DNA from: Verrucomicrobium spinosum DSM 4136 = JCM 18804
GTDB lineage: Bacteria; Verrucomicrobiota; Verrucomicrobiia; Verrucomicrobiales; Verrucomicrobiaceae
DNA: 64,000 nt
Direction of reading: 5' to 3'
Assembly (NCBI RefSeq): GCF_000172155.1
Contig: NZ_ABIZ01000001.1
Span: 5,551,105 to 5,615,104 of the forward strand
Shown: positions 30,910 through 42,319 of the stretch, piece by piece
How the letters are laid out: each line of letters begins with the position of its first letter
Numbering within the stretch: the first letter of the stretch is position 1
Notes under the pieces: generated by a model
What the model saw: only the letters and a program-made list of their open reading frames with translations
The model's database searches: none
What the model was told of the DNA's origin: nothing
Translations under genes and position numbers: made by a program

Positions 30910-33015
30910 TCAGGCCGGGACACCGACAACACCGCCAGGCAACCCGCCCTCCTGCTCGTCCTCAGCAGAACTGGCAGTGCGTTCAGGGGTAGCCTTGGGT
31001 ACGGGAGGAGGCGTAGGAGGCTTGGGTGACTGGGGAGGATTCTGAATCTTACCGGTCTTCATGATCTCCTTGATGTGGCTGCCGTCGAGCGTCTCAAACT
31101 CCAGAAGGGCATGGGCAATGGCGTCCAGCTTGTCCTTGTTGGCGAGCAGGATGTCTTTGGCCTTGGAATAGGCTTCGTCGATGAGACGTTTCACCTCCTC
31201 GTCAATCTTCTGAGCGGTGGCACCACTGTAGTTGCGAGAACGACCGAGGTCGCGGGCCAGGAAGACGGCTCCGTCCCCTTCTCCGTATTCCACCATGCCG
31301 AGCTTCTCGCTCATGCCCCAGGCGCAAACCATGCTGCGGGCGATGTTCGTCGCCTGGCGGATGTCCCCCATGGCTCCGTTGGTCACATCGCTGAACTGGA
31401 CTTCTTCAGCCACTCGGCCACCCATGGCGACCACGAGGTCGTCAAGGAGCTCACTCTTGCGGTGGGTGAATTTGTCCTCTTCAGGCAGCCACATGGTGGA
31501 CCCGAGGGAGGGGCCGCGAGGGATGATGGTCACCTTGTGCAGGGGATCCGTATGCTCCAGAAGTTCGATCAGAATGGCGTGTCCCGCTTCATGGTAGGCG
31601 GTGTTCTCCTTTTCCTTCTCGCTCAGAGCAAGGCTACGGCGCTCACGGCCCCATCGCACCTTGTCACGGGCTTCCTCAAGCTCGGGAGTACCAATGGCCT
31701 TGAGATTTTTGCGAGCCGCCAGAAGGGCCGCCTCGTTGATGATATTGGCAAGCTCCGCACCGGAGAAGCCGGGGGTGCCACGGGCCACCTTGCTGAGGTC
31801 AGCGTTCTCGCTCAGCTTCACGCGCTTGGCATGAACGCGGAGGATTTCCTCACGACCCTTCACATCTGGAAGGCTCACCGTGACCTGACGGTCAAAGCGG
31901 CCCGGACGAAGCAGGGCGGGATCCAGCACATCAGGACGGTTCGTGGCGGCAATGATGATGACACCTTCCTGAGTGTCGAAACCATCCATCTCCACCAGCA
32001 TGGCATTCAGCGTCTGCTCGCGCTCGTCATGTCCCCCACCGAGCCCATGACCACGATGGCGGCCCACGGCATCGATTTCGTCAATGAAGATAAGGCACGG
32101 GGCATTTTTCTTGCCCTGCTCGAACATGTCACGCACACGGCTGGCACCCACGCCCACGAACATCTCGACGAAGTCGGAACCGCTAATGCTGAAGAATGGC
32201 ACGTCAGCCTCACCTGCGATGGCCTTGGCGAGGAGCGTCTTACCCGTACCAGGAGAGCCGACCATGAGCACGCCCTTGGGGATCTTGCCACCCAGGCGCT
32301 GGAATTTCTTGGGATCCTTGAGGAATTCCACCAGTTCCCAGACTTCTTCCTTGGCCTCTTCCACGCCGGCCACATCCTTGAAGGTGATTTTGTTACGGTC
32401 CTGGTTGAGAAGACGGGCCCGGCTCTTGCCAAAGCTCATCGCTCCACGGCCCGCCATCTTCATCTGCTGACGGATCAGGAGGAACAGGCCCACAAACACC
32501 AAGATCGGCAACAGGGTGAAGAAGATCGTGCCCGTGTAGTTGGAGGCATACTCAGGCGTGATGACGATGAGCTCGACCTTGGACTTGTCCAAACCAGCTT
32601 TCTCAGCGGCAGCAAGGCGGGCGTCGTTGGCCTTTTCGATCATGCGGTGCAGCTCGTCCTTTTGGAAGGCAATGTTCACCTCCGTGGTGAAGCTGCCTTC
32701 GGCCGCAGGGTTTTTGCCGTCAGCGGAAACTCCCTTGGTGTAATAACCACTGAGGTACTCAGTGCCAGTGCCCTGATTGGTCACCAGCTTGAGCTCTTTG
32801 TCCTTGGTGGAGATGATCTGGTCGTTTTCCAGGAGTTGCTTGAACTCGGCAAACGTCTTTTTGCCACTTCCCCCCAGACTCTTGTCCTGGTTGAGGAAGA
32901 AGGCCCATGCGATGATGAGCGCGGAAGCGCCGAGAAGCACCAACCCCTTCCAGTTAAACTGGGGCTCGGGCGTCTTGCGGTTGTTGCGCTGGGGATTCTG
33001 TTCTTCGTCGAACAT
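30910..33015 (-). CDS. ftsH: ATP-dependent zinc metalloprotease FtsH
   Basis: FtsH is a hexameric membrane-bound AAA+ protease that degrades misfolded membrane proteins and regulators. The 701-residue protein has two membrane helices (about 24-42 and 165-185) flanking a longer-than-usual periplasmic domain. The AAA domain has the Walker A motif GSPGTGKT, Walker [14 protein letters not shown] and the second region of homology [20 protein letters not shown]. The peptidase has HEAGH (about residue 474) with the two zinc-binding His. A Pro-rich tail ends the protein. All catalytic residues are intact. Confidence 0.97.
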
Positions 33016-33096
33016 AGTGAAATAGTAAAAGAGGGCTTTAGGAAGGATACACCGAACGGAGGTCGTGGAAACCCTTAAATTTCGGAACGCTGACGC

Positions 33097-33246
33097 TCAG
33101 GCAGCGGACGCACCCGATTGCACGGTCCGGCGGCTGAGCAAGGGTTTAGTGACAGCGTTGTCAAGAATGTTCAAGCCCTGAGTCATGCTCAGGGCCAAAA
33201 AGCGGCCCAGCTCATGCACTTGCCCTTGTGTGCGCCCGTATGCCAT
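33097..33246 (-). CDS. Possible small protein upstream of ftsH
   Basis: A 49-codon frame (MAYGRTQGQVHELGRFLALS...) ends in TGA 81 bases before the ftsH start. It has a helical middle segment (FLALSMTQGLNILDNAV) and G/C-rich third positions, but no strong ribosome-binding site. It could be a real small gene or part of the ftsH leader. Without homologs I cannot decide. Confidence 0.3.
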   Translation of the reverse strand: MAYGRTQGQVHELGRFLALSMTQGLNILDNAVTKPLLSRRTVQSGASAA

Positions 33247-33270
33247 GCCTAGTTTGCGCCTTCGTTACCC

Positions 33271-36200
33271 ATGACGCCGCCCGCCGAATCCCAGCCGACT
33301 CCTCCGCGCCCCAAAAAAGGGGCTGCCCGATCGGCTCTATCGCCGTTGGCAGGTGGGCGCTCAACTTGGTGGCAGCGCCTCCTGACCCGTTTCACGGGCC
33401 GTAGCCCGGATTCAGCGGGCAACACCATGCTGCCGGTGCTCATGGAGGTATTTGCCGGGTTCTCCAAGATCGATGGCTCCGTCATGGAGGAGGAGATCGA
33501 CTCCAGCCTGGGGTTCATGCGGTATGATTATCCGGAGGCCATTTACTCGGAGCTGCGCCGCATCTACTTTGAAGCGCTCCAGAAGCCCCAGGACCTCAGC
33601 GCCCGGGCTCGCGACTTGAGTCGCAGCTTGACGGTCGAGCAGAAGATTCTCCTTGGCGTACAGCTCTATCTTCTCATTTCCCGCTCCGAGAACTCCCGGC
33701 AACAGCTGGTGGAATTCTACCTGTTTATGACGAACCTGGGCATTGCCGCCCAGGCCATCGACATTGTCTATCAGCTCAATGCCGAGGACAAACCCGCAGA
33801 TGACGGGGAGTTCCGCAGCAAAGGCGGTCAACCTCTGGAAATGCTGCGCATCGCAGCCCACGAGCCATGCGACGTGCTCCTGCGCTCGTTGGGCGAGGAC
33901 TGCTCAGTGGCCGCGTTCCGGTATCAGAACCTCCTGCTGATCAAAAACGTCGGTGCCACCTCGGTGCTGGTCCGCAGCCGCACCCTGCGCCCCGGCGATT
34001 TCTCGCGTCTGTATCAGGGTGAGCGCGTGGTACTGGACGACGTCTCCCTGGATTACGCGGATCTCATAGGCTACTTCAATGCCAAAAAGAACCTCACGGG
34101 CACGCAGCTCTACCTGACCCTCACCGATGAGGGCAGCGCTGAGATCTCCCAGACGCGCAGTCGAGGCACAAATCTCCGCATCAGCTTCGGCCTCGGGGTC
34201 ACCATTGAGGCGTTGCGTGACACCGACGCCAAGATCAACGGCAAGCGGCTGCGCGAAGGCACCGTGATTGAGGCGTCGATTGAAGACAAGATCATAGCCA
34301 AGGATGAACTGGAGATCTCTCTTCAAGAACTGCGCCGCCGTGCGCGGGAGTTCGGAGAGCAATTCCGCCTGGAGGGCAGCCGCAACACTTACCTCGTCTC
34401 CAACAACCCGGACTTGCTCGACGAGGGGGACATCCTCCTCTCTCAAGATGGCGACGGAGAGATCCTGCTCAAGATCATCTGCAACTACGAGGACAAGACC
34501 GGTGAGCTGGAAGTGCTGCGCGCCGACCGGCCCATCCTCGTGGGGAACATCCCCATCAAAGATCGGGCCATACTTAACGACGGTGACACTCTGACCCTCG
34601 GGGAGGGACAGTACCTGCGCTGCCACTTTGCCGACCGGATCATCGAGGAGGAACGCAACATCATCCGGCAGGTCGAACTGCGCGAGGTGGGGCATCGTTT
34701 CGACCAGCGTGACACCGCGTTGGACAGCATCAGCCTCACCGCCCGGCGCGGAGAGATGATCTGCGTCATGGGCCCGAGCGGATGCGGCAAGAGCACCCTG
34801 CTCCGCACTATCGGCGGTCAGTTGAAGCCCCGGTTCGGAGACATTCAAATGAATGGCTTCCCTCTCTATGAGAGCTTGGACAATCTCTGCCCATACGTCG
34901 CCTACATTCCGCAGGAGGACGCTTTTGACTCCCTTCTGAAGGTTCAGGAAAACCTCGACTTCTCCGTCGCGGTGCGCTGCCCTCACCTGCCCGGGGACGA
35001 GAGGCGGAAGCGCGTCGACGCCAAGCTCGTCGAGCTTGGCCTCAATGAGATGAGAGGCCGGCTTGCCGGGACCCCTCAGCAGAAGTTCCTTAGCGGTGGC
35101 GAGCGCAAACGGCTCAATGCGGGCCTGGACATGATCGGCATCGCGGATGTGTACCTCTTCGACGAGCCGACCTCCGGCCTGTCTTCCAAGGACTCCGAGC
35201 ACGTTCTGGACCTCATTCGATCCCTGGCCCGCAACAAGATCGTCCTGGCGTCCATCCACCAGCCGAGCATGAAGCTCCTGCAGATGTTCGACAAGGCGCT
35301 GCTGCTCGACAAAGGCGGAAAGATGGCCTACTTCGGCACGCCGCAGGGCATGCTCGAGTATTTCTGGCAGGCATACTGCGAAGAAACCACCCCCCAGGAG
35401 GAGAATGCGGCCCCTGTACCCATGCCGGACATGGTCACGCCGGACCTGGTGTTCGACGTGTTGGAGACGCCTCTTCGCGATATCAGCGGCGACATCATCC
35501 ATGAGCGCACCAGCGATGGCCACTTGATGGCCGCAAGGCGGTTCCCGCCCAATTTCTGGCGCGACCGCTACCAGACGCATGTGCTGATGAGCAGCATGTC
35601 GCAGTCAGAGACGCGGCGGGAGAATGCCCGCCGGGAGGAGTCTCGCGGGGAATCGCTTGCACAGCAGCGCAAGCTGCCCAAGCCCCCCCATCTCACCATG
35701 CGGGAGGAGTCCATCCTCTTTGCAACAATGATAAAGCGGGCCTTTCTGAGCAAGCTCAGGAACCGGGCAAACCTTCTGACCACCCTGCTGGAGGCCCCCT
35801 TGCTGGCCTTTCTCATCTCCATGGTCCTCCGGTACTCTGAGGATGACTCCTACACCTTTGCCAGCGCCTTTCACATCCCCACCTACCTGTTCCTGACCCT
35901 GGTGGTGGCCATGTTTTTGGGGCTGACAAACAGCGCGGATGAGATCATCCGCGACCGGCCCATGCTAAACCGGGAGCGAAATCACAACCTCCGGGTGCGG
36001 TACTACATCATCGGGAAGATTCTCTCACTCTCGACCTTCTCACTCATCCAGTGCGTGATCTATCTGCTCATTGGCAATGCGGTGTTGGAGCTCCGGGAGA
36101 TGTTTGTCGTTCACTTGTTCTGGATGTTCATGACTTCCCTCACTGGGGTCTGCCTGGGGCTGCTTGTCTCCACCCTCGTGCACGACATCCGCACGGCGCT

Positions 36201-37050
36201 GAACATCATCCCTCTGCTGCTCATCCCCCAGATCATTCTCGGCGGGGCATTGATCAAGTACGAGGAAATGAACCGCAACCTGGATTTCGTGTACTCCATC
36301 CGCCAATGGTCGGCCAAGGGTGAGGACAAGGACACCTCCGAGGCCAGCAAACTCAAGGTTCCGCTGATCTGCCAGATCATGCCCCTGCGCTGGTCGTATG
36401 AGAGCGCGATCATCTCCCAGGCCAGGCTCAATCCGCTCAGCCGCGCCCAGTCCATGCTGGAGGACAGAATTCAGGGCCTCATCAACCTGCCCCGGCACAT
36501 CCCTATGACCGAGGAGCAGCGGGCGGATCTGGATTTAACAAAGCAGGCTCTGGCCGTAGTCTCAGGATTGCAGGATGTGGACGCCTCTGGAGTCAGCAGC
36601 CGGCTGCGACGCATCCAGGAAAGCGTCTCGAGAGGCCACCTCTCTCCCGAAGACATGAAGCTGAAGAAAGGCGTCAGCGCGGAAGAGATCTACGTAAACC
36701 GCAAGGTGCTGGATCTGGTGACCAAGGCGGAAATGGAACGTGAAGACTACCGCCGCACCGCCAGCCCCAACGTGTTTTTCGGCACTGTAAAGACCTACCC
36801 CCTCTTCGAACCCTCGGCCGCAGCCCCAGGATCGGAGGAAGAAGAACGGGCCACAGGCACCGTCCTGGGTGAATCCCGGGTGAGCAGCGCCACCGCAACC
36901 ACTGGCAACAACAGTCGCAAGGTAAAGCCCTGGTGGCAGGAGTTGCGGGTCCCCACTCTCTGGATGAACTTCATCGTCATGATGGTCACCCTTGTCATGG
37001 TGATTGCCGTGCTGGACGTTTCCCTACGACGCCAGCTCTCCCGGGTATGA
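33271..37050 (+). CDS. ABCG-type transporter fused to TerB-like and FHA-like domains
   Basis: The 1259-residue protein combines several parts. Residues about 50-170 look like a TerB-type helical domain (LMEVFAGFSKIDGSVMEEEI, SLTVEQKILLGVQLYLLI). Residues 200-460 are beta-rich with two FHA-like stretches (DAKINGKRLREGTVIEASI and GNIPIKDRAILNDGDTLTL). A full ABC ATPase follows: Walker A GPSGCGKST (501-509), signature LSGGERKR (607-614), Walker B VYLFDEPT (Asp631, Glu632), and the ABCG-style SSKDSEHVLDLIRSLA. An ABC2-type membrane domain with about six helices begins near residue 815, and one more helix lies at the C-terminus (IVMMVTLVMVIAVLDV). The transported substrate is unknown. Confidence 0.85.
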   Translation: MTPPAESQPTPPRPKKGAARSALSPLAGGRSTWWQRLLTRFTGRSPDSAGNTMLPVLMEVFAGFSKIDGSVMEEEIDSSLGFMRYDYPEAIYSELRRIYFEALQKPQDLSARARDLSRSLTVEQKILLGVQLYLLISRSENSRQQLVEFYLFMTNLGIAAQAIDIVYQLNAEDKPADDGEFRSKGGQPLEMLRIAAHEPCDVLLRSLGEDCSVAAFRYQNLLLIKNVGATSVLVRSRTLRPGDFSRLYQGERVVLDDVSLDYADLIGYFNAKKNLTGTQLYLTLTDEGSAEISQTRSRGTNLRISFGLGVTIEALRDTDAKINGKRLREGTVIEASIEDKIIAKDELEISLQELRRRAREFGEQFRLEGSRNTYLVSNNPDLLDEGDILLSQDGDGEILLKIICNYEDKTGELEVLRADRPILVGNIPIKDRAILNDGDTLTLGEGQYLRCHFADRIIEEERNIIRQVELREVGHRFDQRDTALDSISLTARRGEMICVMGPSGCGKSTLLRTIGGQLKPRFGDIQMNGFPLYESLDNLCPYVAYIPQEDAFDSLLKVQENLDFSVAVRCPHLPGDERRKRVDAKLVELGLNEMRGRLAGTPQQKFLSGGERKRLNAGLDMIGIADVYLFDEPTSGLSSKDSEHVLDLIRSLARNKIVLASIHQPSMKLLQMFDKALLLDKGGKMAYFGTPQGMLEYFWQAYCEETTPQEENAAPVPMPDMVTPDLVFDVLETPLRDISGDIIHERTSDGHLMAARRFPPNFWRDRYQTHVLMSSMSQSETRRENARREESRGESLAQQRKLPKPPHLTMREESILFATMIKRAFLSKLRNRANLLTTLLEAPLLAFLISMVLRYSEDDSYTFASAFHIPTYLFLTLVVAMFLGLTNSADEIIRDRPMLNRERNHNLRVRYYIIGKILSLSTFSLIQCVIYLLIGNAVLELREMFVVHLFWMFMTSLTGVCLGLLVSTLVHDIRTALNIIPLLLIPQIILGGALIKYEEMNRNLDFVYSIRQWSAKGEDKDTSEASKLKVPLICQIMPLRWSYESAIISQARLNPLSRAQSMLEDRIQGLINLPRHIPMTEEQRADLDLTKQALAVVSGLQDVDASGVSSRLRRIQESVSRGHLSPEDMKLKKGVSAEEIYVNRKVLDLVTKAEMEREDYRRTASPNVFFGTVKTYPLFEPSAAAPGSEEEERATGTVLGESRVSSATATTGNNSRKVKPWWQELRVPTLWMNFIVMMVTLVMVIAVLDVSLRRQLSRV

Positions 37051-37137: not shown

Positions 37138-38058
37138 ATGCCTTCCTTGTCACCCTATCAAGATGCCATTCCCTTTCTCTGGCTGGGCGGATTCGCGCTC
37201 TGCCTGGGACTGCATCTCTTTCTTCACCCCCTCGCAAAGGTGTTTCGCCAGGCACTTCATTGGCTGGGCAGACACCCCGCCCCGTTGCTGTGGCTCACCG
37301 CGAGCCTCACCTTTTCCCGCTTCTGGGAACATCGGCTGGGCATGCAGGGAGAAACCATCGAGGCAACTTCGGAAGGGTGGACCATGGAAATGGCCCCCTG
37401 GCCCCACATTTTTCTGCATGGCCTGGCCAACGCATGGCAGCAGTTTGGCCTCCTATTCCACCGGGTGCTGGCGTTCCCCTCCTTTTGGCCAGGCCATTGG
37501 GCAGATGCGACCCTGCAGGCGTTGATTTGCGCCTTTACCCAGGTGTGGTTTGGCTGCTACCTCATCAACACCCGCAATATTTTCACCGAAGAGGGCCTCT
37601 CCCTTCGTCAGACCTTGATCCGGTGGCCAAATGTGATTGCGCTTGCCGCCTGTCAGTGGCCTTGGTGGTGGATCCAAAAACAACCCGGACCGGAGTGGAA
37701 CTTTGCCAAACAATGGCTCCTTCCCGAGTACCTGCTCTTCCTGGCTCCCCTACCCCTGGCCATAGCCACCTTGCGCGGCAGCTTCTTCCATGTAGGAGAA
37801 CTAACCCTCCAATGGTGGCTGCAACGCGGGAAGTTGCTGGCATCGTTTTCCGTCACCGCGCTTCCCATCCTCGCCCTTCTCCACTTTTGTTTAGGGGTTC
37901 TTCCTGATCAGATTTTGGGAAACTGGCTTATGGCAAGATTTCTCATGGAAGCGGTTCTCGTCGCCACCATCCATTTGTGGCTTTTCGTCAGCGCTGCCTT
38001 GCTTCTCCTGTGGGGTGGGTATGTTGATGATGCTCCCGTTTCCCTCGAAGAAGCATGA
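37138..38058 (+). CDS. Polytopic membrane protein, unknown function
   Basis: The 306-residue protein is very rich in Leu, Trp and Phe, with about seven membrane segments (for example IPFLWLGGFALCLGLHLFL, LLFLAPLPLAIATL, AVLVATIHLWLFVSAALLLL). No known motif is seen. Its last codons overlap the start of the HpnD-like gene (ATGA at 38055-38058), so the two are translationally coupled, and it follows the ABC transporter by about 90 bases. A role near isoprenoid lipids is inference from the coupling only. Confidence 0.75.
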   Translation: MPSLSPYQDAIPFLWLGGFALCLGLHLFLHPLAKVFRQALHWLGRHPAPLLWLTASLTFSRFWEHRLGMQGETIEATSEGWTMEMAPWPHIFLHGLANAWQQFGLLFHRVLAFPSFWPGHWADATLQALICAFTQVWFGCYLINTRNIFTEEGLSLRQTLIRWPNVIALAACQWPWWWIQKQPGPEWNFAKQWLLPEYLLFLAPLPLAIATLRGSFFHVGELTLQWWLQRGKLLASFSVTALPILALLHFCLGVLPDQILGNWLMARFLMEAVLVATIHLWLFVSAALLLLWGGYVDDAPVSLEEA

Positions 38059-38903
38059 CCCCTGGCGAGTCCGTCACCAACCAGATCGCACGACGCAGCA
38101 AGTCGAACCTCGCGTTCGCCCTGTCAACGTTGTCACGGACCCGGAAGCGGGACATGATGACCTTCTATGCATTCTGCCGGGTGGTGGATGACATTGGAGA
38201 CGAAGACACTGCTGGAGTGGAAGTGCGGCGGCAATTGCTTCAGGAATGGCGTGACGGCCTGACGCAAGGGTTCCCCCATCCTGACGACCTCCAGAGCGAG
38301 ATCGCAGAACTGCCCAAGCGTTATCCGATCGATCGCGCCATGATGGCAGAAATCATCGACGGGGTGGCCAGCGATCTGGACCATCGGTTCTATGAAACCC
38401 ATGAGGAGGTCCTGGCCTACTGCTACAAGGTGGCCTGTGTGGTGGGTCTGGTGAGCATCGAAATTTTTGGCTACACGAACCCTGCGTGCAAAAACTACGC
38501 TGTGGCGCTGGGTTATGCCCTGCAACTCACCAACATCATCCGCGATGTCGGCGAGGACGCCCGCAACGGCCGCATTTACCTCCCTTTGGAAGACTTGAGA
38601 CGCTTCAAAGTCACAGAGCGCCAGATTCTGGAAGGACGTCCTCCGGCGAGTTTTGAAGCGCTCATGGAGCATCAGTACCAAAAGGCAATGCACTTCTACG
38701 CGGAAGCCGAGAGGCTCCTTCCGGAGGAGGACCGGCACCGCATGCTCGCCGCAGAAATGATGGCCCAGGTGTACAGCGAGATTCTCCAGAAGATCCGCAA
38801 ACACCGGTTTCAGGTCTTTGGTCGCCGCATTGGATTGAGCAAGCTTCGCAAGTTCGCCATTTTGGGTGCCTACACGGCCCGTGGCTTTATGCGAGCAGTC
38901 TGA
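38055..38903 (+). CDS. hpnD: Squalene/phytoene synthase family, HpnD-like
   Basis: The 282-residue protein has the two Asp-rich regions of head-to-head prenyl synthases: FYAFCRVVDDIGDED and QLTNIIRDVGEDARNGRIYLP (the second with the metal-binding Asp pair). The following stretch LEDLRRFKVTERQILEG and the C-terminal EILQKIRKHRFQVFGRRIGLSKLRK are typical of HpnD, which makes presqualene diphosphate from farnesyl diphosphate for hopanoid or squalene synthesis. HpnC, HpnE and squalene-hopene cyclase are not in the window. A phytoene synthase role cannot be excluded. Confidence 0.85.
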   Translation: MTPGESVTNQIARRSKSNLAFALSTLSRTRKRDMMTFYAFCRVVDDIGDEDTAGVEVRRQLLQEWRDGLTQGFPHPDDLQSEIAELPKRYPIDRAMMAEIIDGVASDLDHRFYETHEEVLAYCYKVACVVGLVSIEIFGYTNPACKNYAVALGYALQLTNIIRDVGEDARNGRIYLPLEDLRRFKVTERQILEGRPPASFEALMEHQYQKAMHFYAEAERLLPEEDRHRMLAAEMMAQVYSEILQKIRKHRFQVFGRRIGLSKLRKFAILGAYTARGFMRAV

Positions 38904-39075
38904 GTCACCCCTTTCGGGGCTGGAGCTCAGATGTGCTGGTGAATAGACCTTGGGAATATCTCGTCAGAAGCGTCCCCCCAATCTTGGATTTGCACTGACC
39001 AGCCCCCGCCTTGGCGGAAACTTCGGATTCCCAAAGCACTTGCAACTCCGTCGATTTGAACCACCTTTTTTCGTC

Positions 39076-39975
39076 ATGAAAACGCCCACTCAGCCCGGTC
39101 TCACCCCCCTTTTTGTGGCCGCGGCCCTTCTCATCACACCTGTCAGCCAAAGCCTCGCGGCAGACCGCGCCCCCTCCCAACCGCCCGAGAAACTCGGTTC
39201 CCGAATCGTCAATTTTTTCAAGGGTTTGGTGGACCGTGACGAGTCACCGCCCACCTACAACGAGTATCCGCCCACCCGCCCCCCCTATCCACCGCAAGGA
39301 CAAGGTCGGCAGCCCCGGCGTTACAATTTGGATGCTCCACCGCCAATCCCAGGTGGCTCCGGCGAATATGAGCGGGAAAACTACAGCCAGCCAGAACGCC
39401 CGACGCCTCGCCCTCGCACCAATGCCGCCCCTACCCCTGATGAAGAGTATGATCCGCCGATGAGCCGGCAGGGCCCCAGCTCAGGCCCGCGGACGCAACA
39501 GGATCTTCCCTACGAGTCCCCACCGTCAGAACCTGCAACGCCTACACGGCAGAAGCCGGCGGAGCCACCGTCCCGCCGCCAGGAGCCTTCTCCATCGCTG
39601 GGTAAAACGCAGGCACCCAAGAACAACGCGCCCACAGGTCAAAAACCAAATGAGAGCCCTTCGAAGCCTGCTAGCGGCAATCACTCTCCAGTCACCACGA
39701 CTTCCAACTCGCCCGTGATGACTCCAGACAGCACGCCAACGCCAGAGCCACGCCGCCAGGAGCCCGTCGCAGACGAGCCGAACACCACCGCAAACTTGAA
39801 ACCCTCCACGCCAAGCCCGGCCGCCTCAGGCGCACCGCTGGTGGGATCCAAGACCGCCAAGCCAGGTCGCGTGAAGAGCCCTTACCCGCCTTACAATGAG
39901 TTGGACGTGACTGGCCTCTCCAGCGGATCACTGGCAATGGACCCCACGACTCAGAAGGTGTTTCGCGTGCCCTGA
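39076..39975 (+). CDS. Secreted proline-rich low-complexity protein
   Basis: From the ATG at 39076 there are 299 residues: a signal peptide (MKTPTQPGLTPLFVAAALLI...SLAA), a short helix (LGSRIVNFFKGLVDRD) and then about 200 residues dominated by Pro, Ser, Thr, Gln and Glu (PPTYNEYPPTRPPYPPQGQ). A C-terminal short stretch (YPPYNELDVTGLSSGSLAMD) looks folded and may be the functional end. It is probably an extended envelope protein. No family is recognised. Confidence 0.7.
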   Translation: MKTPTQPGLTPLFVAAALLITPVSQSLAADRAPSQPPEKLGSRIVNFFKGLVDRDESPPTYNEYPPTRPPYPPQGQGRQPRRYNLDAPPPIPGGSGEYERENYSQPERPTPRPRTNAAPTPDEEYDPPMSRQGPSSGPRTQQDLPYESPPSEPATPTRQKPAEPPSRRQEPSPSLGKTQAPKNNAPTGQKPNESPSKPASGNHSPVTTTSNSPVMTPDSTPTPEPRRQEPVADEPNTTANLKPSTPSPAASGAPLVGSKTAKPGRVKSPYPPYNELDVTGLSSGSLAMDPTTQKVFRVP

Positions 39976-40174
39976 GTCGTAGTTCCTACAACTGCTGCAC
40001 TGACCTGATCAATTGTGGTGGCTCTTATTTTTGGATGCCCGCCTTTGGCAGGAGGATGCCGCAGGCCAGCTATGAAAGCCCCGCAATACACCGCCGGTTT
40101 GTAGGGATTTGTCCAATCAGGCCCTCAAACAAGCAAACCTTTGCACGGCGTAACTTGCCTGCTAAGACAGCGCG

Positions 40175-40936
40175 ATGCCAGAACGCTCCCGTACCCACCT
40201 TCTACTAATCCCCTCCTTCAACACGGGCCCAAAGCTCGTGGAGACGGTGAAGGGAGCGTTGGAAGAATGGTCACCAGTGTGGGTGGTGGTGGATGGCAGC
40301 ACCGACGACAGTGAGAAGGCGGTGGAGGCGCTCCTGCCCGAGCACGAAGGCGACCTCAGGATTCTCAAACTGCCGGTAAACTCCGGCAAAGGATCGGCCG
40401 TGTTGCAGGGCACGACAGAGGCAGTGGCCCAAGGCTACACCCATGTGCTGACCATGGATGCCGACGGGCAGCATGCCTCCGGCTCGATCAGGAAATTCAT
40501 GGAGGCTTCCCAGAGCAAGCCGGAGACGGTCGTGTTGGGCTTGCCCCAGTTCGACAGCAGCGCCCCCCTCATCCGCCTGCGTGGCCGGCGGATCGCGAAC
40601 TGGTGGGCCCGACTGGAGACGATGTCAGATTTGGGTGACTGCCTCTTCGGATTTCGCGTGTATCCTGCAGCACCGCTCATACAGGTCATGCAAAAGACCC
40701 GCTGGGCCCGCCGCTTTGACTTCGACCCGGAGGTGGCCATGCGCCTAATTTGGAGAGGTCACCCTCCGCTCAATGTCCCCGCTCCGTGCCGATATTTCAC
40801 CAAAGCCGAAGGCGGAGTGTCCCACTTCAACTACTACCGGGACAACGTGCTGCTCACCTGGATGTTCACCCGGCTCTTCTTAGGCTTTCTGTTAAGACTT
40901 CCAAAGTTGCTTGGAAGGAAGCTCCGTAGTAATTAG
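40175..40936 (+). CDS. Glycosyltransferase family 2
   Basis: The 253-residue protein has the GT2 (GT-A) opening LLLIPSFNTGPKLVETV and VWVVVDGSTDDS, with NSGKGSAVLQGTTEA and the metal-binding DADGQHAS motif. The C-terminal part (RYFTKAEGGVSHFNYYRDNV) has the RYxxxxxGGVSHF pattern of polyprenyl-phosphate sugar transferases. It lies first in a tight run with a lipoprotein and a methyltransferase, so all three may act on one surface glycan or lipid. Confidence 0.85.
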   Translation: MPERSRTHLLLIPSFNTGPKLVETVKGALEEWSPVWVVVDGSTDDSEKAVEALLPEHEGDLRILKLPVNSGKGSAVLQGTTEAVAQGYTHVLTMDADGQHASGSIRKFMEASQSKPETVVLGLPQFDSSAPLIRLRGRRIANWWARLETMSDLGDCLFGFRVYPAAPLIQVMQKTRWARRFDFDPEVAMRLIWRGHPPLNVPAPCRYFTKAEGGVSHFNYYRDNVLLTWMFTRLFLGFLLRLPKLLGRKLRSN

Positions 40937-40941
40937 TTCTT

Positions 40942-41565
40942 ATGAGATTTCCCGCGACGCTGCTTAGATTCTATATGGGTGCCGGTATGGCGCTGATCCT
41001 CGCCGCCTGCTCTTCGACGCCGGTCAGCCTGGACTACCAGCCAGGACTGAGCCAAGGCCCCGTCGGACCTCGTCGCGTGGCTGCTGGCCGCTTCGCCGAC
41101 TTGCGCAACGATCACCCCTACTATTTGGGAACCGTCAAAACGCCAATTGGGACACCGATCGAAAACATCATGGCCAATGTGCCGGTGGCAGAACTGGTGA
41201 GGAACGCTTTCGCGCACGGTTTGAGCGCACGTAAAATGTTGGTTTCCCACACCACCGCACCGTACATGATCACCGGGGAGATCCTCGAATTGCGCTGCGA
41301 TCAGGTCGTCAGACCTGCAGCATATGTGAAGATCCGCGTGAACGTGGTGCGGTCTGGGGGCGGTCAGGTGCTTTTCAGCCGTGTCTACTCGGGTGAGCGG
41401 GAAATGGGGGCCTACATGCCCGGCAGCGGTTCCCCAATTCCTGTGTTGCGGGAGTTGATGTCCCGTGCCCTGCAGGATGTGATTGACCGGGCACTGGATG
41501 ACAGCGCCCTGCGGTCACGGCTCAAGTCCCCAGCGTCAGGCAGCTACGGTACTGATCTGCTATAA
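40942..41565 (+). CDS. Outer-membrane lipoprotein, YajG/LptE-like
   Basis: The 207-residue protein follows the GT2 gene by five bases. A signal peptide ends in a lipobox (ALILAACSS), so the mature protein is lipidated. The mature domain (AELVRNAFAHGLSARKML, YMITGEILELRCDQV, YVKIRVNVVRSGGGQVLFSRVYSGE) has the alternating helix/strand pattern of YajG-type lipoproteins and ABC-transport auxiliary lipoproteins. The exact function is unknown. Confidence 0.75.
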   Translation: MRFPATLLRFYMGAGMALILAACSSTPVSLDYQPGLSQGPVGPRRVAAGRFADLRNDHPYYLGTVKTPIGTPIENIMANVPVAELVRNAFAHGLSARKMLVSHTTAPYMITGEILELRCDQVVRPAAYVKIRVNVVRSGGGQVLFSRVYSGEREMGAYMPGSGSPIPVLRELMSRALQDVIDRALDDSALRSRLKSPASGSYGTDLL

Positions 41566-41620
41566 TCGCCCCTCGTTGACCCCGCTTCCTCCAGCCCCGG
41601 CTCCAGCGCCTCCCCCCCTT

Positions 41621-42319
41621 GTGGCGAGGCGGCCGGATGCTCATCCACTTAAGGTGGTCGCCCGGAACATTTCAGGGCGATATGGCACACCGTTCGACCG
41701 TCACTTTGCCTACTGGAAGGTGCAGATGGATCCGCTCTACCAAGGGGTCGGCGGGCTGCTTGCAGGCTCGTCATTGCCTGTATTGGACGTGGGTTGCGGA
41801 ACCGGTCTGCTTTGCTTTTATCTCCTCGAACGCGGTGCGCTGGGTCCGCTGCATGGGTTGGACTTCGATCCTCACAAGATCGCTGCGGCGAGGAAGGCCG
41901 CCGAGGCCTTGCCCAACCCCCCTGTGTTCCATCAGGGGGATGCTCGGGATCCCTGGCCCGACATCTCCGGTCACGTCTGTCTCCTGGATGTACTGCACTA
42001 CCTGCCCGCCGATGCTCAGGCCCCCTTGCTTACCTCCGCAGCCCGTCATGTGGCCTCCAATGGGCGACTGGTGATTCGTACGGGCTTAAAGGCAGACCAC
42101 TGGCGCTACCGCGTCACCCTCATGACAGACAGGCTCATGAACCGCCTGAATCTCATGAAATCACCGCCCCTCTCCTATCCAGAGCAAGGGCAGTTGGAAG
42201 CAGTGCTGCATGAAGCAGGCCTACAATTGATCTCGGCGAGATCCCTCCACGAGGGCACCCCCTTCAACAACCACTTGCTCATCTTTGGGCGGAACCCGCA
42301 GGAGAGCAGTGCGGCCTAG
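41621..42319 (+). CDS. Class I SAM-dependent methyltransferase
   Basis: The conserved domain begins near residue 10 (HPLKVVARNISGRYGTPF); no in-frame ATG precedes it, so a GTG at 41621 or a TTG at 41576 starts the protein. Motif I is VLDVGCGTGLLCFYLL, motif II PLHGLDFDPHKIAAA, motif III FHQGDARD, and VCLLDVLHYLP is motif IV. It is the last gene of the run with the GT2 and lipoprotein genes. Its TAG and the TAG of the convergent gene share the palindrome CTAG at 42316-42319. Confidence 0.8.
   Translation: MARRPDAHPLKVVARNISGRYGTPFDRHFAYWKVQMDPLYQGVGGLLAGSSLPVLDVGCGTGLLCFYLLERGALGPLHGLDFDPHKIAAARKAAEALPNPPVFHQGDARDPWPDISGHVCLLDVLHYLPADAQAPLLTSAARHVASNGRLVIRTGLKADHWRYRVTLMTDRLMNRLNLMKSPPLSYPEQGQLEAVLHEAGLQLISARSLHEGTPFNNHLLIFGRNPQESSAA

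Follow-up and report, generated by a model that had tools for sequence, protein, structure and literature searches.

The open reading frame at 33271-37050 (+) of the window, the 64,000-nucleotide stretch of DNA analysed here, encodes an ABCG-type half-transporter of 1259 aa (ATG start) that is presumably a homodimeric exporter of an envelope substrate, and whose N-terminal TerB-like and FHA-like domains would form a phospho-independent docking platform. We put the probability of this reading at slightly under 0.6. We computed the domain content and order, their conservation within one polypeptide, the invariance of the catalytic residues, the loss of phosphothreonine-binding residues and the absence of linkage to an HpnD gene, and we infer the direction of export, the homodimer, the docking role and the nature of the substrate. 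The chain runs from a variable start through a TerB-like domain, an FHA-like domain, a beta stretch and a second FHA-like domain to an ABCG-type ATPase, TM1-TM5, a loop and TM6. Profiles, together with AlphaFold and Foldseek for the head, support the parts that a first-pass annotation of this DNA had listed for the 1259-residue protein (TerB-like, FHA-like, ABC ATPase and ABC2), and the domain order is conserved as one polypeptide among relatives in the genomes of the class. The genome carrying the window comprises 8.22 Mb in a single contig.

The transporter part is of ABCG type: the ATPase domain lies N-terminal to the membrane domain within one chain, and the closest relatives in NCBIfam and PDB are transporters of ABCG/PDR type. 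The ATPase occupies residues 467-710 (34669..35400, +), an assignment based on Pfam (ABC_tran, residues 484-635, E 1e-23), NCBIfam, PDB relatives and a motif alignment. Walker A, Walker B, the signature and the H-loop, which reads HQPS, are all intact. G501, S503, G504 and G506-S508 of Walker A, D631 and E632 of Walker B and H663 of the H-loop are invariant in 85 aligned rows. A linker that varies among homologues (residues 711-815, 35401..35715, +) connects the ATPase to the membrane domain (ABC2_membrane, residues 817-1009, E 6e-25), of which TM1-TM5 span residues 816-1000 (35716..36270, +; Pfam and hydropathy) and TM6 spans residues 1225-1256 (36943..37038, +; hydropathy). By hydropathy there are six TM segments, the fifth and sixth of which are separated by about 225 residues. 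This long loop (residues 1001-1224, 36271..36942, +) contains the conserved positions P1038, R1040, E1044 and N1143, and is taken as extracytoplasmic because of the ABCG topology. The ATPase-first order, the HQPS H-loop, the six TM segments and an external TM5-TM6 loop are shared with the eukaryotic-type ABCG half-transporters (ABCG1, 2, 5/8 and White) which, unlike the transporter described here, have no TerB/FHA head. At roughly 70 aa, the TM5-TM6 loop of ABCG2 is about a third as long as the loop here.

The head starts with a proline/arginine-rich tail (residues 1-49, 33271..33417, +) that is highly variable (mean identity 18% among homologues); residues 40-51, the first 12 of the stretch modelled with AlphaFold, have pLDDT < 50. 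Residues 50-170 (33418..33780, +) form a predicted domain of seven helices that profiles, AlphaFold and Foldseek identify as TerB-like. This supports the earlier proposal for the same residues, and we hold the assignment with moderate confidence. The window protein alone gave no Pfam match to TerB or FHA. When 40 homologues of residues 40-475 were searched, TerB (PF05099) was matched by 20 (E<=1, best E 7e-6) and FHA (PF00498) by 16 (E<=1, best E 7e-4), counts that are not independent since the homologues are mutually related. The TerB matches that were inspected singly fall just short of the curated threshold (e.g. 23.1 against 24.4 bits) or are weaker still. A profile-profile comparison with TerB proteins of the same order scored 30.4 and was colinear over 107 columns, compared with at most 14.1 for 40 reversed or shuffled controls; the hhalign probability of the match is only about 40-50%. 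The AlphaFold model of residues 40-475 (built with 40 homologues, pLDDT 84) shows the seven helices (49-170) followed by beta-sandwiches. For a TerB-only model the best Foldseek match was 2h5n (prob 0.89, TM about 0.5, but E 0.41), a structure that the TerB family profile also reaches by sequence (E 2.6e-7), beside 2jxu and 2ou3. With these members of the TerB family (K. pneumoniae TerB, 2jxu; the COG3793 protein, 2ou3; PG_1108, 2h5n) the domain shares a predicted helical bundle, a colinear profile and the first DG-E motif, which reads DG-x3-EEE (residues 68-75) and is kept in most aligned rows. It differs from them in being fused to a transporter and in lacking, in the aligned rows, the second acidic motif of the family (DG-x-E), a loss that renders ion binding doubtful. 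The TerB module, widespread but enigmatic, is known from tellurite/stress ter systems; no ter operon was seen adjoining the transporter gene.

Two FHA-like beta-sandwiches follow, domain A at residues 184-275 (33820..34095, +) and domain C at residues 353-462 (34327..34656, +), both recognized by profiles, AlphaFold and Foldseek. In profile-profile comparison with FHA, residues 180-275 scored 23.7 and residues 350-462 scored 27.3, with shuffles reaching at most 16.6 and 15.9 respectively. The best Foldseek matches of the 40-475 model were mostly FHA folds, with EssC on top, and a PDB profile search gave 3gqs as a weak match for domain C; the model, the structural matches and the profile scores agree on an FHA beta-sandwich fold. 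Polyubiquitin matches in the PDB profile search were rejected as an artefact of many weak repeats. The beta-rich connector between the two domains (residues 276-352, 34096..34326, +), delimited from the AlphaFold model and the profile scores, is not recognisable as FHA, and a third FHA domain at residues 275-352 was rejected since its profile score was within the shuffles.

Both FHA-like domains are without the residues that bind phosphothreonine. Across the 85 aligned rows, domain A has G/S/A-S/A at the canonical GR position (Arg is found there in seven rows), SN stands where GR is expected in domain C, and neither domain retains the NG position; the SxxH motif was not recognisable in the profile alignments of either domain. 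FHA domains of the EssC / YscD / CdsD type are among the best structural matches of these beta domains, and the FHA domain of EssC is a published example that likewise misses the phosphothreonine-binding residues (PMC4925161). Domains of that type belong to secretion-system proteins, whereas the FHA-like domains described here sit on a transporter. Since the binding residues are missing in both domains, direct phosphorylation sensing is unlikely, and the suggestion that the N-terminal part senses phosphorylation state is not supported. The FHA-like domains likely serve phospho-independent protein contact instead.

The TerB/FHA-headed architecture is apparently a real and conserved, but undescribed, family; our literature searches found no paper describing such a family or functional data on it. 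An ABC/TM query matched 57 of 188 genomes of the class at E<=1e-60, almost all with a single copy. The open frames of all listed matches span about 1100-1600 aa (homologues are typically ~1200 aa), which argues that a long N-terminal part is general in the family. The first-pass annotation had called the architecture non-standard; this is true when textbook ABCG proteins are the reference, but the family spans much of the class. Verrucomicrobiaceae carry homologues, as do a second family of the order, to which Akkermansia-like genomes belong, and families of Chthoniobacterales type. The transporter is present in most Verrucomicrobiales sampled, is intact and full length in 65 homologous loci, and in Verrucomicrobium sp. 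strains is 97-98% identical to the window protein. A divergent version of the family (~1120-1140 aa, 39% identity in the ABC part) was observed at G258:C107:54993-56471 and G419:C50:98375-99865; in G258 it is a second, shorter copy besides the usual one. The nearest relative of the ABC and TM parts found outside Verrucomicrobiota is a Parabacteroides ABC protein (WP_005856192, 973 aa; 30% over 647 columns). Its TM5-TM6 loop is similarly long, but only about 230 residues precede the ATPase: an N-terminal region of ~135 aa, colinear with the TerB-like domain, and a short stretch. Homology of this region to the TerB-like domain was rejected because the score is barely above, or about level with, that of shuffles.

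The mechanism that we favour would be as follows. An ABCG-type half-transporter, ATPase first and membrane domain second, would presumably act as an ATP-driven homodimeric exporter in the inner membrane. Its cytoplasmic head of ~460 residues (the TerB-like helical bundle and two FHA-like beta-sandwiches) would most likely provide a phospho-independent docking and dimer-control platform beside the ATPase. Engagement of the ATPases would depend on a partner protein or on an ion bound to the TerB-like domain, and the long loop between TM5 and TM6 would influence how an envelope-associated substrate is released or contacted. This control logic would resemble that of Rv1747 from Mycobacterium tuberculosis, minus phosphorylation. 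Among FHA-headed ABC transporters, Rv1747 is the nearest model that has been studied by experiment; as here, a single chain carries FHA domains ahead of an ABCG-like ATPase and a membrane domain. As a putative exporter it has been linked to phosphatidylinositol mannosides, and binding of a phosphorylated partner by its FHA I domain is thought to restrain activity (PMC5549992). The same overall FHA-FHA-ATPase-membrane order, together with that glycolipid link, would suit a divergent Rv1747-type exporter of an envelope glycolipid under a Ser/Thr kinase pathway, a reading that we nevertheless consider unlikely. FHA I of Rv1747 binds a phosphothreonine partner, whereas the FHA-like domains here are degenerate, and a TerB-like domain has been added. 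In a tree of the ABC and TM parts (built without locus L039), the family and the Parabacteroides protein are split 100/100, with long branches as a caveat, from Rv1747-type FHA-ABC proteins, represented by a Rv1747-like protein of Mycolicibacterium, a Nostoc protein and a protein of the window genome itself. The latter is a separate, Rv1747-like FHA-FHA-ABC-ABC2 protein of about 940 aa or more (L004, G000:C1 about 433.8-436.2 kb), the second FHA domain of which keeps the canonical GR and SRxH motifs. We are similarly doubtful of a class-core exporter gated by the TerB-like domain, in which ion or membrane-stress sensing would be relayed via the two FHA-like domains without phosphothreonine binding; if true, the TerB module would directly control a transporter.

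The neighbouring genes bear on two further readings. Upstream lies the divergent ftsH gene (AAA and M41 peptidase; 30910..33015, -), 255 bp from the transporter gene. This proximity to a membrane quality-control protease, seen in several lineages, and the conserved positions in the TM5-TM6 loop of about 225 aa would be in keeping with an ABC protein that, like MacB or FtsEX, serves as a mechanotransmitter or envelope sensor and not as a pump, its long periplasmic loop acting on a protein of the envelope. We regard this as improbable, given that the membrane domain is of the ABCG/ABC2 type, the usual exporter fold, and that the neighbourhood of the transporter showed no conserved gene for a periplasmic partner. 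FtsH itself was rejected as a functional partner: of the 80 loci having enough upstream DNA, just 11 show the divergent pair within 600 bp, to which L012 and L040 can be added, and its recurrence in several lineages of the order is suggestive of ancestral synteny only. Downstream are a membrane protein of no known family (37138..38058, +), recognized by profile search and locus comparison as a conserved partner of the HpnD gene, and a gene of the squalene/phytoene synthase family that is closest to HpnD (38055..38903, +; 265.8 bits, model cut-off 278.6). This HpnD-like gene, two genes downstream of the transporter in Verrucomicrobium, had led to the suggestion of a terpenoid lipid substrate and, with the FHA-like domains, could point to a phosphorylation-gated exporter of a hopanoid- or squalene-type lipid in an operon with its synthase. 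We judge this very unlikely. The three-gene order, the conservation of which the first-pass annotation had proposed to check, is confined to the genus Verrucomicrobium, whereas the genes for the membrane protein and HpnD stay together as a pair in many Verrucomicrobiaceae, at differing positions away from the transporter. Indeed, the transporter and the pair are on C7 and C5 in G066 and on C1 and C10 in G188. The linkage therefore gives a terpenoid substrate no support, and gating by phosphorylation is at odds with the missing phosphothreonine residues. A squalene/phytoene synthase near the transporter in Akkermansia was rejected as evidence for such a substrate because it is closer to the other, unlinked copy in the window genome (34-39% full length) than to HpnD, to which it gives partial matches.

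The exporter with a docking platform that we favour is of interest in that its TerB-like domain is joined in one chain to a kind of activity that can be measured (ATP hydrolysis, export), which makes a regulatory effect of TerB directly testable. It also adds to the FHA-ABC transporters members unable to bind phosphothreonine in the usual way. Conservation of the gene in Akkermansia and most Verrucomicrobiales sampled suggests that the transporter is probably a core envelope function of this common gut and soil group.

Several other features of the loci were observed. The divergent region of 255 bp between ftsH and the transporter gene (33016-33270) may hold a shared promoter region, since the gene pair recurs in several lineages; a scan for promoters and terminators yielded no signal above chance. 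The membrane protein encoded at 37138..38058 may be a partner in squalene/hopanoid synthesis. In several Akkermansia-like genomes (L116-L121 and L123), an SDR gene and an uncharacterised protein lie near the transporter, with a squalene/phytoene synthase close by in five of these loci and a sigma-54 activator in four. Further downstream in the window (38950-42319) are genes for a proline-rich predicted secreted protein, a GT2 glycosyltransferase, a small lipoprotein-like protein and a SAM methyltransferase, and genes related to this run are also found near the transporter in a Phragmitibacter locus (L087).
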